A DNA stretch of 64,000 nucleotides, from positions 62,001 to 126,000 of the forward strand of contig NZ_JASHKN010000006.1 of the NCBI RefSeq assembly GCF_030056735.1, written 5' to 3'. Source of the stretch: Rhodococcus sp. IEGM 1409 (GTDB lineage: Bacteria > Actinomycetota > Actinomycetes > Mycobacteriales > Mycobacteriaceae). This document shows positions 19,462-27,854 of this stretch, piece after piece (position 1 is the stretch's first letter; each line of letters starts with the position of its first letter). Position numbers and translations under genes: made by a program. The notes under the pieces are model-generated. The model searched no databases. It was not told where the DNA came from and saw only the letters and a program-made list of their open reading frames with translations.

Positions 19462-20079
19462 TCAGTGCGTTGCCAGCTGGGCGACAATGATGTAGTTGTC
19501 CTGCGTCGACTCCCCCTCGACGACATCACAATTGGCGAGGATCAGACGTCCCGGAACGGATTCGCGCAACTCGTGAGTGCCGAGCAGCGAACCTTTGTGC
19601 AGCGGCCCGACGGTTTCGACGTCGTACTCGAGCACTCCGTTCGGTGTGCCCAGCAGGACGTGATCACCTGGCTCCACTACCCGTAGCGCTCGGAACGGTG
19701 CTTCGCGAGTGGTGTAGTTGTGCCCGACGACAACAACGGTCTGTGTGGTCGACGTTCCTGGCAGTCCGCTCTCGCCCCACCACACCGGCAGTTCGTCGAC
19801 CGGATTCAGCTGCTGTCCACTCTCGCCGCCACGCATCAGTTTCTCCGAGTGCAACGGACTGCTCAGATACGTAACACCGGACGCAGACCTCACTTCGATC
19901 CGGTCGGGTTCGGCCGGATCGACGCTCACCGAAGCCGGCGCAGCCGCGATGTGCGACTGCACCGGCGAGCGGTCAGGTAGCGATCCCGAGTTCTCGCCCG
20001 AACATCCGGATACGAGGAGTGCGAGGATCGCTACCGCGGACAGACCGGCGTTACGCAGACGTGTTGCCCGTACCGTCAT
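19462..20079 (-). CDS. Lipoprotein-type class E/F-like sortase with altered active site
   Basis: 205 residues. Signal with a lipobox (LVSGC, Cys26) predicts a lipid anchor instead of the usual membrane helix. The sortase barrel follows, with catalytic His120 in VVGHNYTT and Cys184 in LILANCDV. The conserved catalytic Arg of the last strand is absent: the segment reads QDNYIIVAQL, with Gln193/Asn195 where Arg is expected. Its ATG lies inside the end of the Ala-rich surface-protein gene (29-base overlap), so the two are cotranscribed and the neighbour is the natural substrate candidate. Transpeptidase activity is therefore inferred with caution. Confidence 0.8.
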   Translation of the reverse strand: MTVRATRLRNAGLSAVAILALLVSGCSGENSGSLPDRSPVQSHIAAAPASVSVDPAEPDRIEVRSASGVTYLSSPLHSEKLMRGGESGQQLNPVDELPVWWGESGLPGTSTTQTVVVVGHNYTTREAPFRALRVVEPGDHVLLGTPNGVLEYDVETVGPLHKGSLLGTHELRESVPGRLILANCDVVEGESTQDNYIIVAQLATH

Positions 20080-21745
20080 GACGCTTGCGACGAACGACCA
20101 CCGTCGTAGCTGCTGCGGCCGCGGCGCCCACGACTCCGACGCCGATCAGCACAGCCGGCAGATTGGAACTGCTGCTACCGCTGGTGCTACTTGCAGTGTC
20201 ACCGAGAGCAAGCTCGACCGGAGGAAGGCTTCCGGCAAGTGCCGGATCACCGTCGGCGTCGGTGACGTAGTAATCGACGACGTCGAAGGCGCCCTTGTTG
20301 TTGTAGTAGCCGACCAGTTTGACACCGGTCTTGTTCACTACTGCCGTGGTCTCGTCGACCTTCGTGACTCCGGAACCGTCGTCTGTGTGCTCACCGATGA
20401 TCACTTCACCGCCGACGCCTGTTCCGTTGTCGATCTCCTTCTCGCCCTTGGCCTTGAGCTCGTCGACGATCTTCTGCGCTGCATCCGCTTCGGCCTTTGC
20501 GGCTGCCGCAGCGGCCTGAGCTTCCTTGGCCTTTGCAGCTGCGGCGTCTGCTGCGGCCTTCGCGTCTTCGGCGGCCAGGTAGAGGTCTTGCGCCTTCTTG
20601 CTCGCCGCTTCAGCAGCTTCGGCCTTCTTGGCAGCCTCGGCAGCCTTCTCGTCGGCGATTGCTCGCTTGTCGGTGGCCGACTCGCCCGCAGCGTCGGCTT
20701 CGGCCTGGGCCGTCTGCGCAGCCTTCGCCGCAGCGTCGGCGTCCTTCTGTGCAGAAGCCGCAGTAGCAGCCGCTTCGTCTGCGGCCTTACGGGCGGCGGT
20801 GGCAGCTTCTACCTCGGTGGCTGCCGCGGACTCAGCTGCCTTGGCCGTGGTTTCGGCGGCGGTGGCCACCTTCTGAGTCTCCCTCACGGTGACTGCAAGC
20901 TGCTTGGCATTCCACGCTGCTGCCAGCGCTTCGGCCTTTGCAGCGAACGCCTTCGCGAAGTCCCAGTTCTTGAGAGCTTCCTCTGCTTCCTTGTTCTTGT
21001 CATCGACCAGTTTGGCGTTCGCATCCGCGGCAGCCTTCGCGTCATCGGCTTTGGCCTGCAGAGCATCAGCCTCGGCGCGCGCCTTTGCGGCCTCTTCGGT
21101 CTTGGCCCCCGAACCGGCGGCCTTCGCTGCTTCCTCGAGTTCCGCAGCCTTGGCTGCGGCGGCGTCAGCTTCTGCCTGAGCTGTTTTTGCTACCTCTTTG
21201 GCATCGGCCGCCGCGGACGCCGCAACCTTGGCTGCCTCTTCGGCTTCCTTGGCAGACTGTTCTGCAGCCCCGGCCTCTGCCTTGGCCTGGGTCGACTCGA
21301 CTGCCGCCTTGGTTGCCTCGACGCTCGCCTGAGTCATTGCCTCGGTCGCCTTCACCGAAGTGTCTGTCGCTTCTGACGAGTCGACCCCTGCCGTCGCGGC
21401 TGCTTCGGCGGCCTTCGCTGCGGCGTCGGCTGCGGCTTTCGCTTTTGCTTCGGCTTCCGCCAGTGCTGCGGCGTCCGTCCCTGCGGTTCCGGCAGTACCT
21501 GCTTCTGCAGCGCCGGCTTCGGCCTTCTCGGGCGCGGTCTCGGTGCTTGTCGCCGCGTCGGCGTCGGTGGTGGGAACTACTTCTTCCTCGCCGCAGGTCA
21601 CAAGCGGATCCGCGCTCGGGGTACACACGGTTTCCGGCTCTGCCGATGCAATTCCCGTGCCGCCCACCGCCAATCCGAGAGCGAGTACGGCACCGGCGGC
21701 CGCAGAGCGGACCCTCCGAGAATGGGCGATGGACTTCTCCGACAT
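20051..21745 (-). CDS. Ala-rich coiled-coil surface protein with C-terminal membrane tail
   Basis: 564 residues from ATG 21745 (GAAAGG 9 bases upstream; the GTG at 21772 has no such site). Signal peptide with cleavage near residue 35 (GIASA-EPET), then about 350 residues made of Ala/Glu/Lys/Asp heptad-like text (AAAKAAEAAATA, KAEADAAQKIV) with almost no aromatic residues: a long alpha-helical rod. A non-helical domain follows (VGYYNNKGAFDVVDYYVTDADG), then a Ser linker, NLPAV at 528-532, a hydrophobic helix and RRKR. This layout mimics an LPXTG cell-wall anchor with a non-standard motif. Partner of the overlapping sortase gene. Confidence 0.8.
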   Translation of the reverse strand: MSEKSIAHSRRVRSAAAGAVLALGLAVGGTGIASAEPETVCTPSADPLVTCGEEEVVPTTDADAATSTETAPEKAEAGAAEAGTAGTAGTDAAALAEAEAKAKAAADAAAKAAEAAATAGVDSSEATDTSVKATEAMTQASVEATKAAVESTQAKAEAGAAEQSAKEAEEAAKVAASAAADAKEVAKTAQAEADAAAAKAAELEEAAKAAGSGAKTEEAAKARAEADALQAKADDAKAAADANAKLVDDKNKEAEEALKNWDFAKAFAAKAEALAAAWNAKQLAVTVRETQKVATAAETTAKAAESAAATEVEAATAARKAADEAAATAASAQKDADAAAKAAQTAQAEADAAGESATDKRAIADEKAAEAAKKAEAAEAASKKAQDLYLAAEDAKAAADAAAAKAKEAQAAAAAAKAEADAAQKIVDELKAKGEKEIDNGTGVGGEVIIGEHTDDGSGVTKVDETTAVVNKTGVKLVGYYNNKGAFDVVDYYVTDADGDPALAGSLPPVELALGDTASSTSGSSSSNLPAVLIGVGVVGAAAAAATTVVVRRKRHDGTGNTSA

Positions 21746-21878
21746 AGCGCTCAACCTTTCGGCCTTCTTCACGAAGACGACAATTCCGGCGTGGACAGCC
21801 TTTACTTCGTCGGCTGAGTTCCAGGCGTTACGACCGGTCGGTCCGAAAAGTTGGGAGCTTGTGTTCGATGCGCAGGAA

Positions 21879-23547: not shown

Positions 23548-24195
23548 TCAAATAATCAGTTTCGCGCCGGTGGCAGCAACCACGTCGTCGACGCTGATGC
23601 CCGGCGCCGTCTCCACCAGACGGAGACCGTCGACAGTCACGTCGATCACGGCCATGTCGGTGATGATTCGCTGCACGCAGCCCTTACCGGTCAACGGAAG
23701 TGAGCACTCCTCGACGATCTTGTGCTCACCCTTCTTCGAGACGTGCTCCATCATCACGATGACGCGCTTTGCGCCGTGGACCAGATCCATCGCGCCACCC
23801 ATGCCTTTGACCATGTGGCCGGGGATCATCCAGTTCGCAAGATCCCCGGTGGCACTGACCTGCATGGCACCGAGCACGGCAACGTCGACCTGGCCGCCGC
23901 GGATCATGCCGAACGACGCGGAGGAGTCGAAGAACGAAGCACCGGGGAGAACGGTGATGGTCTCCTTGCCTGCATTGATCAGCTCGGGATCGAGTTCGTC
24001 CTCGGTGGGGTACGGCCCCACGCCCAGAACGCCGTTCTCCGAGTGCAATACGACGGTGATATCTGTCGGGAGGTAGTTCGGAACCAGCGTCGGCATACCG
24101 ATGCCGAGGTTCACGTACTGCCCGTCCTCGAGTTCGCGCGCGACGCGAGCCGCCATCTCTTCGCGGGTGAGTTTGGTGGGTAGTACAGAAGTCAT
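23548..24195 (-). CDS. pcaJ: 3-oxoadipate CoA-transferase subunit B
   Basis: 215 residues of CoA transferase family I, beta subunit, with the catalytic Glu in [12 protein letters not shown] and [14 protein letters not shown] near the N-terminus. With PcaI it moves CoA from succinyl-CoA to 3-oxoadipate. ATG 24195 (MTSVLPTKL) overlaps the pcaI stop by 4 bases. The family also includes ScoB; the assignment to PcaJ rests on the position next to pcaHGBLRF. Confidence 0.9.
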
Positions 24196-24941
24196 GCTCG
24201 TACCGTCCGATTCTCGATGCCGACCGTCACCGGGCCGACGTGGACAACGCGCTGAACGTGAATGCCGGGCGTGTGAATCTCGGCTGGATCGAGCTCGCCT
24301 GGCTCGACGAGGTGCTCGACCTGCGCGATGGTGATGCGACCCGACGTTGCTGCAGCCGGATTGAAGTTCTGGGTACTCGCGCGATAGACGAGGTTGCCGT
24401 GCCGGTCGCCCTTCCAAGCATGAACAAGTGCGTAGTCGGCGACGATGCCGCGCTCCATCACGTAGGTGACGCCGTCGAATTCGCGAGTTTCCTTGGGCGG
24501 ACTGGCAACTGCGATGCCGCCATTGCCGTCGTAACGCAGTGGCAGGCCACCGTCGGCAACCTGGGTGCCGACGCCGGCCGGGGTGAAGAACGCGGGGATG
24601 CCCGCTCCCCCGGCGCGCATGCGCTCGGCGAGCGTGCCCTGCGGCGTCAGTTCGACTTCGAGTTCACCGGAAAGGTACTGACGCGCGAACTCCTTGTTGG
24701 AGCCGACGTACGAGCTGACAGTACGGCGGATCCGTCCCTTCTCCAGAAGTACTCCGAGCCCGAACCCGTCGGTGCCGCAGTTGTTGCTCACCGTTTCGAG
24801 TGAGGTGGCGCCCTGCTTGAGGAGCGCATCGATGAGGATCTCCGGCACGCCGACGAGTCCGAAACCTCCGACAGCGATCGTGACGCCGTCCGGCACGTCG
24901 GCGACGGCCTCGGCAGCAGTGGGAATGACTTTGTCCATCAT
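24192..24941 (-). CDS. pcaI: 3-oxoadipate CoA-transferase subunit A
   Basis: About 249 residues. The alpha-subunit signature [21 protein letters not shown] and [18 protein letters not shown] are clear. The start is uncertain: ATG 24941, ATG 24938 or GTG 24950 are all in frame with no strong ribosome-binding site, which may mean a very short leader. Divergent from pcaH, so both arms are likely controlled from the 168-base intergenic region. Confidence 0.88.
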
Positions 24942-25042
24942 GTCGATCACAGTAGCGTGAGGCGTACGTATTGTGAACCCTCGTGCGCATCCCGAACATT
25001 TTTCGTCCCCGGCATTGCCTGGGTCACATCTACGAACTATCC

Positions 25043-25079
25043 TGTTCGCAGAGCGCAACACATGTACACATTGCGAACA
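25043..25079. promoter_or_regulatory. Inverted repeat in the pcaI-pcaH intergenic region, candidate PcaR site
   Basis: TGTTCGCA (25043-25050) and TGCGAACA (25072-25079) are exact inverted copies. The first belongs to a denser half-palindrome GTTCGCAGAGCGCAAC that resembles IclR-type GTTCG-containing PcaR sites. PcaR is encoded downstream in the same cluster. Confidence 0.5.
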
Positions 25080-25109
25080 CCTTCACGTAACCGAACGACG
25101 AGGTTCCCT

Positions 25110-25829
25110 ATGCTGCATCTACCGCCGAGGTACCAGCGGCCGGCTGGCGTCAACGCCCCGGCCGATTTCGCGGACTACAAGACCACTTCACTTCGCCACC
25201 CGAAGCAACCGCTGAAGCTGCTCCCCCAGCGCCTCACGGAGCTCACCGGGCCGGTATTCGGCGAGGACCGTGTCGGAGCCGGCGAAAACGACCTGACCAT
25301 TGCCAACGGCGGCGAAGCACAGGGACAGCGCATCGTTGTCCACGGCCGTGTTCTCGACGGCGACGGAAAGCCGGTCCCCCACACACTGCTCGAGGTGTGG
25401 CAGGCCAACGCCGGTGGACGCTACCGCCACACCGGCGACAACTGGCCCGCACCGCTGGACCCGTTCTTCAACGGGCTCGGTCGCTGCGTGAGCGACGCGA
25501 ACGGCCACTACAGCTTCACCACGATCAAGCCGGGCGCCTACCCGTGGATGAACCACGACAACGCATGGCGACCGGCACACATCCATTTCTCGCTGTTCGG
25601 CACGGCATTCACGCAGCGCCTGGTGACGCAAATGTACTTCCCCGACGATCCGATGTTCTTCCAGGACCCGATCTACAACGCGGTACCCGAAGCAGCACGT
25701 CACCGCATGGTCAGCGTCTTCGACTACGACGCCACAGTCCCCAACTGGGCTCTCGGGTTCCGCTTCGACATCGTCCTGCGCGGCCGTAATGCCTCCGTAT
25801 TCGAGAACGAGGAAGACCACGATGACTGA
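25110..25829 (+). CDS. pcaH: Protocatechuate 3,4-dioxygenase beta subunit
   Basis: 239 residues. The intradiol dioxygenase Fe(III) ligands are visible in the beta-subunit pattern: Tyr in GGRYRHTGDNWP, Tyr in KPGAYPWMNHDN, and two His in RPAHIHFSLFG. It cleaves protocatechuate to 3-carboxy-cis,cis-muconate together with PcaG. ATG 25110 (MLHLPPRYQRP) has GAGG 6 bases upstream. The pcaG start overlaps its end by 8 bases. Confidence 0.95.
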   Translation: MLHLPPRYQRPAGVNAPADFADYKTTSLRHPKQPLKLLPQRLTELTGPVFGEDRVGAGENDLTIANGGEAQGQRIVVHGRVLDGDGKPVPHTLLEVWQANAGGRYRHTGDNWPAPLDPFFNGLGRCVSDANGHYSFTTIKPGAYPWMNHDNAWRPAHIHFSLFGTAFTQRLVTQMYFPDDPMFFQDPIYNAVPEAARHRMVSVFDYDATVPNWALGFRFDIVLRGRNASVFENEEDHDD

Positions 25830-26514
25830 AAAGCTCACCCCGGCCACATCCCCCGTCGCTTCGCTCGCCCCGGCCACATCCCCCGTCGCTTCGCTCGCCC
25901 CGCGTTACCCCGTCGTCCCCGGCGACTTCACCACCGCCCCCTTCGGTGTCACGCCCTCTCAGACCGTCGGTCCGTACTGGCACATCGGCCTCCCCTGGAC
26001 GGACGGCCCCGACGCCGCCCCGACCGACGCCCCCGGACGAATCACGCTGGCCATCACGGTGATCGACGGCGCCCGTACACCCGTCGCCGACGCGATGATC
26101 GAAACGTGGCAGGCCGATACCCTCGGACGCTTCAACCATCCGGACGATCCCCGCGGCGCAGTGGACCTCACTCCGGCCGGTTTTCGCGGATTCGCCCGCA
26201 GCGCAGCGGATCCCACGGGCACCGCACTGGTCCACACGGTCAAGCCCGGTGCGCTGCCCACCGAAGCTGACGTGAGCGAAGCCCCACACGTCAACGTGTC
26301 GGTATTTGCGCGCGGCATGCTCGACCGCCTGGTCACCCGCTTGTACTTCCCCGAGGACGCCGACGCACAGGCAACAGATCCGGTCCTGTCGTCACTGAGC
26401 GAAACCGAACGCGCGAAGTTGGTTGCAACCAAGGTCGACGGTGGGTACTCCTGGACGGTCTATGTTCAGGACGAGGACGCGAACGGCGTCGAGACGCCCT
26501 TCTTCGAGCTGTAA
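25822..26514 (+). CDS. pcaG: Protocatechuate 3,4-dioxygenase alpha subunit
   Basis: 230 residues with GVTPSQTVGPYWHIGLPW, typical of the alpha subunit; it lacks the full set of iron ligands, as expected. The N-terminus carries an in-frame tandem duplication (PATSPVASLA twice, residues 7-26) before the conserved part begins. Translation is coupled to pcaH by an 8-base overlap; pcaB follows after 11 bases. Confidence 0.94.
   Translation: MTEKLTPATSPVASLAPATSPVASLAPRYPVVPGDFTTAPFGVTPSQTVGPYWHIGLPWTDGPDAAPTDAPGRITLAITVIDGARTPVADAMIETWQADTLGRFNHPDDPRGAVDLTPAGFRGFARSAADPTGTALVHTVKPGALPTEADVSEAPHVNVSVFARGMLDRLVTRLYFPEDADAQATDPVLSSLSETERAKLVATKVDGGYSWTVYVQDEDANGVETPFFEL
25840..25899 (+). repeat. 30-base tandem duplication within pcaG
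   Basis: Two identical 30-base units, each encoding PATSPVASLA, stand head to tail at the start of pcaG. Being in frame they lengthen the N-terminal tail by ten residues. Confidence 0.9.
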
Positions 26515-26525
26515 GAGGAGTACAC

Positions 26526-27854
26526 ATGCCCACTCGCGGTGCACTGTTCGATCCGGTGTTCGGGGCCACCCGAGTAGCGGAACACCTGTCCGACCAGGCG
26601 TGGGTCACCGCGTTGCTCGACGTGGAAGCTGCACTGAGCTGCGCGATGTCCACAGTCGGATTGGCGGACGGGAAACATTGCGCCGCGGTGGCGGCTGCTG
26701 CGGCCGAACTCTCACAACCGGGTGGTCTGGACATCGTGGCGCTCGGCCGGGCGTCGGCGGCCAGTGGAAATCCTGTCATCCCGTTGGTGAAGATGCTTCG
26801 CGAAAGGGTGGGACAGGAAGGTGTGCCGGCCTCCGTGGTACATCCGGGAGCCACCAGCCAGGACATCATGGACTGTGCCCTCATGCTGTTGACGCGGCGT
26901 GCGGGCGCGGTGGTTCTGGCCGACCTGACACGTGCCGCCGATTCCGCCGCCCACCTCGCTCGCATCCATCGATCGACCCCGATGGTCGCGAGAACCCTGG
27001 GCCAACAGGCACTTCCGACCACGTTCGGTCTCTTGGCCTCCAGTTGGTTCACGGCACTCGACGCCGCCGCGATTCGCCTCGAGATCGTGCTGTCCACGTT
27101 GCCGGTTCAGTTCGGCGGTGCCGCAGGCACACTCGCTGCCCTGTATCCCGACGGACTCAGGATCGCCGATGCACTGGCCGACGAACTCGGACTCGCCAGG
27201 CAGGTTGCTCCCTGGCACACCGACCGCGTGACCATCGCAGAACTCGCGACTACCCTCGGTATCGTCGCCGGCGCTGTATCCAAGCCCGCCACCGACATCA
27301 CCGTCATGGCGTCCACCGAACTGTCCGAGGTTGCCGAAAACGCTCCGGGCGGCTCATCGGCCATGCCGCACAAGCAGAATCCCGTAGCGGCCATCACCGC
27401 CCGCGCAGCAGCGCGACGTGCTCCCGCACTGGTCGCTACAGCCCTCTCGAACATGGATCACGAATTCGCTCGCGCTGCAGGCCCCTGGCACGCCGAGTGG
27501 GAAACCGTCACCGATCTCCTGCGTCTGGCAGGCGGAGCAGCGCACCAGCTTTCCGTCAGCCTCACCGGTCTGCAAGTACACACCGAGTCGATGGCCCGCA
27601 ATCTCGACATCACCGGCGGCCTGATTCTCGCCGAGCGTGTCACCAAGGCCCTGTCCGCGCACACCGATCGGGCACGCGACATCGTCACAGCAGCAGCCAC
27701 TTCCGGAATCAGGTTGGATCGTGATCCCGCCATCGCCGAGCACCTGAGCGAAGCGGAGATCTCCGAACTACTCGACCCCGCACACTATCTGGGCCACGCC
27801 CCCGATCTGGTCGACCGCGCCCTCGCCGAACGCCCTACAGGAGGATCTCGATGA
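26526..27854 (+). CDS. pcaB: 3-carboxy-cis,cis-muconate cycloisomerase
   Basis: 442 residues of the fumarase/aspartase superfamily: signature GSSAMPHKQNPVAAI with the catalytic loop Ser, and HPGATSQDIMD. It lactonises 3-carboxymuconate to 4-carboxymuconolactone. GAGGAG precedes the ATG. Its stop overlaps pcaL by 4 bases. Confidence 0.94.
   Translation: MPTRGALFDPVFGATRVAEHLSDQAWVTALLDVEAALSCAMSTVGLADGKHCAAVAAAAAELSQPGGLDIVALGRASAASGNPVIPLVKMLRERVGQEGVPASVVHPGATSQDIMDCALMLLTRRAGAVVLADLTRAADSAAHLARIHRSTPMVARTLGQQALPTTFGLLASSWFTALDAAAIRLEIVLSTLPVQFGGAAGTLAALYPDGLRIADALADELGLARQVAPWHTDRVTIAELATTLGIVAGAVSKPATDITVMASTELSEVAENAPGGSSAMPHKQNPVAAITARAAARRAPALVATALSNMDHEFARAAGPWHAEWETVTDLLRLAGGAAHQLSVSLTGLQVHTESMARNLDITGGLILAERVTKALSAHTDRARDIVTAAATSGIRLDRDPAIAEHLSEAEISELLDPAHYLGHAPDLVDRALAERPTGGSR

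Follow-up and report, generated by a model that had tools for sequence, protein, structure and literature searches.

Genes for sortases and for their substrates commonly lie side by side. In Rhodococcus equi, two sortase islands include substrates, one of which carries an LPVTG signal, and in R. erythropolis the putative LPVTG substrate RER_38400 is encoded beside a sortase (PMC2947987). Class E sortases are associated with an LAXTG signal, as in Streptomyces SrtE1 (PMC5148588). Class F sortases have not yet been assigned a physiological role, and candidate substrates encoded next to them have been passed over for having no LPXTG-like pentapeptide (PMC13251363). Such was the case in Actinoplanes missouriensis, where the class F genes srtF1 and srtF4 adjoin AMIS_11010 and AMIS_36440; both encoded proteins have a signal peptide, a C-terminal helix and a basic stretch, and both were put aside for want of a recognised motif even though the authors suspected them to be substrates (PMC13251363).

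The locus described here lies in Rhodococcus sp. IEGM 1409. It shares with the R. equi islands and RER_38400 a Rhodococcus sortase that adjoins a putative surface-protein substrate, and differs from them in that theirs bear the canonical LPVTG. It can also be likened, by description and not by sequence, to the srtF1 and srtF4 pairs, in which a sortase again stands beside a protein with a signal peptide, a C-terminal helix and a basic tail but no recognised pentapeptide; those pairs belong to another genus and to class F proper. Neither the sortase clade to which the enzyme belongs (clade 1, below) nor its partner's LALG[DG] segment was found described in the open-access papers searched, and no relevant paper on the GVDTG-type tails of class F partners was found there either.

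Gene models and domain organisation

The locus consists of two overlapping minus-strand genes in a 6.1-Mb genome, with the reading frame for an alanine-rich rod protein first and that for the sortase second. Coordinates refer to the window, the 64,000-nucleotide stretch of DNA that was analysed.

19462..20079, minus strand: lipoprotein-type sortase, 205 aa (reading frame, lipobox, Pfam Sortase)
20051..20079, minus strand: 29-nt gene overlap, with the sortase ATG within the last codons of the rod gene
20051..21745, minus strand: Ala-rich rod protein of 564 aa, predicted to be secreted, putative substrate (reading frame from ATG, conserved MSEKS start, dN/dS)
21641..21745, minus strand: rod signal peptide, residues 1-35 (ending GIASA, followed by EP; from sequence)
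20411..21460, minus strand: Ala/Glu/Lys helical rod, residues 96-445 (composition and heptad-type periodicity)
20231..20410, minus strand: small C-terminal beta domain, residues ~446-505 (alignments; low-confidence model with beta strands)
20198..20227, minus strand: LPPVELALGD, residues 507-516, proposed sorting signal (conservation in paired rods, Pro-x6-Gly register)
20150..20164, minus strand: NLPAV, residues 528-532 (non-conserved; start of membrane helix)
20054..20158, minus strand: C-terminal membrane helix (530-551) and basic tail RRKRHDGTGNTSA (552-564) (sequence; aligns with class F partner anchors)

This layout agrees with the sequence-only reading, which had recognised a lipoprotein-type sortase starting inside the end of a 564-residue gene and a product composed of a signal peptide, a rod of about 350 Ala/Glu/Lys-rich residues, a small C-terminal domain, a hydrophobic helix and a basic tail. 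Its NLPAV motif is also present, but instead of preceding the helix it stands where the helix begins. The 564-residue model is to be preferred, and a 573-residue rod from a GTG at 21772 was rejected, because the rods of relatives begin MSEKS or MSQKS. In relatives, too, the rod and sortase genes overlap or abut, although the length of the overlap varies with the start codon chosen. Tat export, considered because of SRRVR in the signal peptide, was likewise rejected, since relatives have SKKAR or ARKTR at that place. Slightly past the rod gene, window positions 23548-27854 hold genes resembling a beta-ketoadipate pathway cluster (CoA-transferase subunits, protocatechuate dioxygenase subunits and a lyase).

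Residues 96-445 of the rod are 42% Ala, 12% Glu and 12% Lys and show a 3.5-residue, heptad-type periodicity (p=0.006 against shuffled sequences); from composition, our guess is that they form an extended spacer or stalk. The small domain that follows is conserved in alignments of both paired and unpaired homologues, that is, rods with and without an adjacent sortase. A search of the PDB with it returned no relative by sequence, only weak matches within its membrane-helix part, and its AlphaFold model is poor (pLDDT about 45-54 around LALGD). A Ser-rich linker connects LPPVELALGD to the membrane helix. The tail contains no LPXTG motif, LPPVELALGD and NLPAV being the only candidates, and against the GVDTG sorting domain (NF058571) it scores 18.5 bits (cut-off 29), the match covering helix and linker only and no TG.

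The sortase

The enzyme exceeds the cut-off of the Pfam Sortase model PF04203 (41.9 bits, with 26.6 required; E=1e-10) and bears the lipobox LVSGC (Cys26), which is kept in its intact named relatives. It is predicted to have a sortase fold: its AlphaFold model (mean pLDDT 83) finds only sortases, of classes A, C, D and E, as top PDB matches. The active-site residues are His120 (GHN), Asn183-Cys184 (LANC) and, at the position of the strand-8 catalytic Arg, which is absent, Asn195 (T-x-D-N); His120, Cys184 and Asn195 are invariant across 20 relatives. Asn at the Arg position is common to class F sortases generally, so that Asn195 does not exclude the enzyme from the superfamily. All 13 clade-1 members aligned have Asn immediately ahead of the catalytic Cys, a place taken by Thr in class E, class F and the sister clade. 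In Streptococcus pyogenes SrtA, the oxyanion is believed to be stabilised by this Thr, and replacing it with Ala nearly abolishes activity; Thr occupies the position in over 90% of 400 class A sortases (PMC9520033).

Among the NCBIfam class models, class F (NF033748) scores best, but its 22.3 bits fall far under the 166-bit cut-off, and the enzyme was therefore not filed as class F; class E (NF033747) gives 13.5 bits (cut-off 160) and class C 12.5 bits. The tree supports clade 1 at 97/92 and has as separate groups class F (92/96), class E (100/100) and the sister clade, a second set of Mycobacteriaceae sortases designated clade 2 (100/98). Deeper joins between these groups are weak or unsupported, and the placement of clade 2 nearest to clade 1 (91/73) is not conclusive. 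The enzyme is best regarded as belonging to a clade of its own with kinship to class F.

Class F systems with their GVDTG_CTERM partners (NF058571) resemble the present one in the sortase domain, in the Asn at the Arg position, in a partner gene immediately upstream, and in a partner tail with Pro-x6-Gly before a helix and an RRRR ending. They differ in profile score, in tree position, in having LxTC where clade 1 has LANC, and in the signal, that of clade 1 being LALG[DG], which has no Thr. Class E sortases are also actinobacterial and share L-A in the signal, but they retain Thr before Cys as well as the Arg (TTCHP...R, against LANC...N here) and stand apart in the tree, and LALG lacks both the Thr and one residue of LAXTG.

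Conservation of the gene pair

Linkage was measured by two profile searches, one with the rod C-terminal domain and one with the sortase, both run on a single set of 401 genomes from the family. Strong matches to the domain occur in 51 genomes and the sortase occurs in 48; 46 of the 48 clade-1 sortases have, as a same-strand neighbour, a rod with this domain. The pair is also present at 14 of 14 loci of named genomes (Rhodococcus, Rhodococcoides, Lolliginicoccus), and because the flanking genes differ between genera, it has been kept together amid changing surroundings. This linkage strongly supports the earlier proposal of a dedicated enzyme-substrate pair and answers the search for sortase/Ala-rich pairs in related genomes with conserved pairing. 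The reading's accompanying remark that LPXTG-type anchors are rare in mycolate-bearing actinobacteria was overstated in view of the R. equi islands and of class F matches in 241 of 299 genomes of the order, a sample mostly outside the mycolate family.

A profile search of the genome itself found one homologue only of the rod C-terminal domain; a search of phages returned no rod relatives and one of plasmids no sortase relatives. The dN/dS ratios (0.12-0.13 for the sortase, 0.09-0.14 for the rod) indicate that purifying selection acts on both genes. Rhodococcus sp. IEGM 1379 has broken copies of both: frameshifts disrupt the sortase gene, and the rod gene, besides carrying a frameshift, has been shortened by a large internal loss.

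The proposed C-terminal sorting signal

NLPAV had been put forward as a non-standard anchor motif, with an NLPxV consensus expected among relatives. C-terminal alignment gives no such consensus: across 43 distinct paired rods the equivalent segment reads LPAV, LPAI, LPVI, TPVI, TPAI, VPLV, VPAV, APVL or VPAL, with only the Pro nearly constant, and a Pro is found at that place in most unpaired rods as well (IPISV, IPIQV, LPVAA). Since NLPAV varies among relatives and is part of the membrane helix in the alignments, we rejected it as a conserved sorting signal. The expectation of a conserved C-terminal motif did hold, but for a segment further upstream: LP[PA]V[DES][LF]ALG[DG] is kept in all 43 distinct paired rods, and ALG in none of the six distinct rods without an adjacent sortase, which read LVSSE (three), LVLGD (two) and LLLGA (one). 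The point at which the rod is tied to the cell wall is thus probably the LALG segment rather than NLPAV, and cleavage would fall between LAL and GD, although LALG lacks the Thr of well-characterised signals. The difference between paired and unpaired rods is not fully independent because the two sets are also phylogenetically separated, and the LVLGD retained by two unpaired rods counts against reading the segment as a signal.

Genome G173 has the order rod (LALGD), sortase, second rod (LVSSE), and two relatives have the second rod alone at the same place, with no clade-1 sortase. Paralogous rods without LALG that keep the membrane helix were seen at three loci (L145:6681-8162, plus strand; L147; L148), and at the latter two the paired rod and sortase are absent.

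Comparison with partner tails of other sortases

In this order, class F sortases too have a partner encoded upstream, with a tail of the kind seen here. When ten of these tails were aligned unsupervised, the only invariant columns were the basic pair and a Pro and a Gly seven apart, as in PxGSVDTG, PxGGVDGG, PIGGAQAG and PAGAPQTG. Pro-x6-Gly is also invariant in clade-1 rods (PPVxLALG) and clade-2 partners (PxAxVxTG). The Gly precedes the basic residues by 37-40 positions in clades 1 and 2 and by 30-33 in class F partners, whereas the NLPAV segment lies only 22 residues before the basic pair. The C-terminal helix and tail of the rod align with class F partner anchors (hhalign P=8e-9), which places NLPAV inside the membrane helix, and comparison of clade-1 with clade-2 tails sets LPPVELALGD opposite TPGAGVVTGR unprompted and in register, if weakly (probability 11%). 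Which residues to allow in front of the Gly was decided with the class F tails already in view. By itself the spacing is suggestive and not proof, since a suitably placed Pro-x6-Gly also occurs in 5 of 28 other tail-anchored-like reading frames.

Clade-2 sortases are found in other genera of Mycobacteriaceae (L042-L046). Like the present enzyme, they follow an overlapping or abutting upstream gene whose product has an Ala-rich coil, here a short one; at four of the five loci (L042-L044 and L046) that product ends in PxAxVxTGR, a helix and a basic stretch. They differ in lacking a lipobox, in the active site (LETCD or LATCD) and in the signal, PxAxVxTGR.

Proposed function and alternatives

We consider it likely that the two genes encode a dedicated sortase and its substrate, and that the lipid-anchored enzyme cuts at LALGD and joins the rod to the cell wall. 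From the gene pairing, the conservation, the motif pattern and the active-site residues we infer the following course of export, cleavage and covalent display. The signal peptide would direct export of the rod, and the C-terminal helix and basic tail would keep it in the membrane, where the sortase would recognise the exposed LPPVxLALGD segment and cut just ahead of the helix, most likely between the Leu and Gly of LALGD. The new C terminus would then be transferred to a cell-wall amine, probably of a peptidoglycan precursor, so that the Ala-rich helical rod would come to stand on the cell surface. Through the gene overlap, production of the enzyme would be coupled to that of its substrate. 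We hypothesise that Asn beside the catalytic Cys and Leu in place of Thr before the scissile Gly represent a matched change in enzyme and substrate.

A dedicated pair in which cleavage falls instead at the membrane-proximal [LVTA]PxV/I segment (NLPAV) would account for the nearly constant Pro at the start of the helix, after which the residues resemble L-P-x-V; the alternating L-A-L of LALGD could then be the last strand of the small domain. We think this rather unlikely, given that the Pro alone is kept in paired rods and persists in most unpaired ones, that the segment lies within the membrane helix and closer to the basic pair than the 30-40 residues of the motif glycines, and that LALGD is not a strand in the AlphaFold model, albeit at low confidence.

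A sortase without activity, or one that leaves the rod untouched, is unlikely in our view. Such an enzyme would suit the unusual presence of Asn in place of the oxyanion Thr as well as of the Arg, and because unpaired rods keep helix and basic tail with no sortase beside them, the anchor may work alone, as in a plain tail-anchored membrane protein; purifying selection, conserved linkage and the invariant catalytic His and Cys argue against it, as does the general presence of Asn at the Arg position in class F. Polymerisation of rods into a fibre by a class C-type pilin sortase, rather than attachment of single rods, seems very improbable. The long Lys-rich rod, its dedicated sortase and the presence of class C structures among the best fold matches fit such an activity, but loci usually hold one substrate (G173, with two, is the exception) and one sortase, the class C profile fits worse than that of class F, and class A, D and E structures match the fold about equally well.

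It is conceivable, if on balance doubtful, that clade 1 is a separate sortase class of mycolate-bearing actinobacteria, with Asn for the oxyanion Thr, a cut after Leu in LPxVxLALGD and a one-to-one match with Ala-rich rods, and that with class F it follows a general rule of a Pro seven residues before the scissile Gly, overlooked because searches demand LPXTG-like pentapeptides. The Pro-x6-Gly register offers a concrete motif to test in the candidate proteins adjacent to class F sortases, and the altered active site (LANC) and altered signal (LALG) together provide a simple system of two genes in which sortase specificity can be tested.

Other sortase-linked proteins

A Pfam search had suggested that the enzyme is the sole sortase in its genome; this was rejected on finding a second, class F-like lipoprotein sortase (G000:C44, about 479.5-481.1 kb; L175:1515-3055) whose gene overlaps that of an upstream protein. 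The upstream protein has no membrane helix and ends in VPISQVPSGPTSRP. Similar C-terminal signatures recur beside sortases at five other loci (L050, L051, L054, L056 and L057), and this type of ending resembles the class F signal VPRGSVDTG stopped at its scissile bond, after the Thr. In genome G173, a class F sortase partner (L180:4798-6147, minus strand) ends in a GVDTG-type tail, and its N-terminal part matches an ice-binding protein model with E=1.6e-28, below the model's cut-off.
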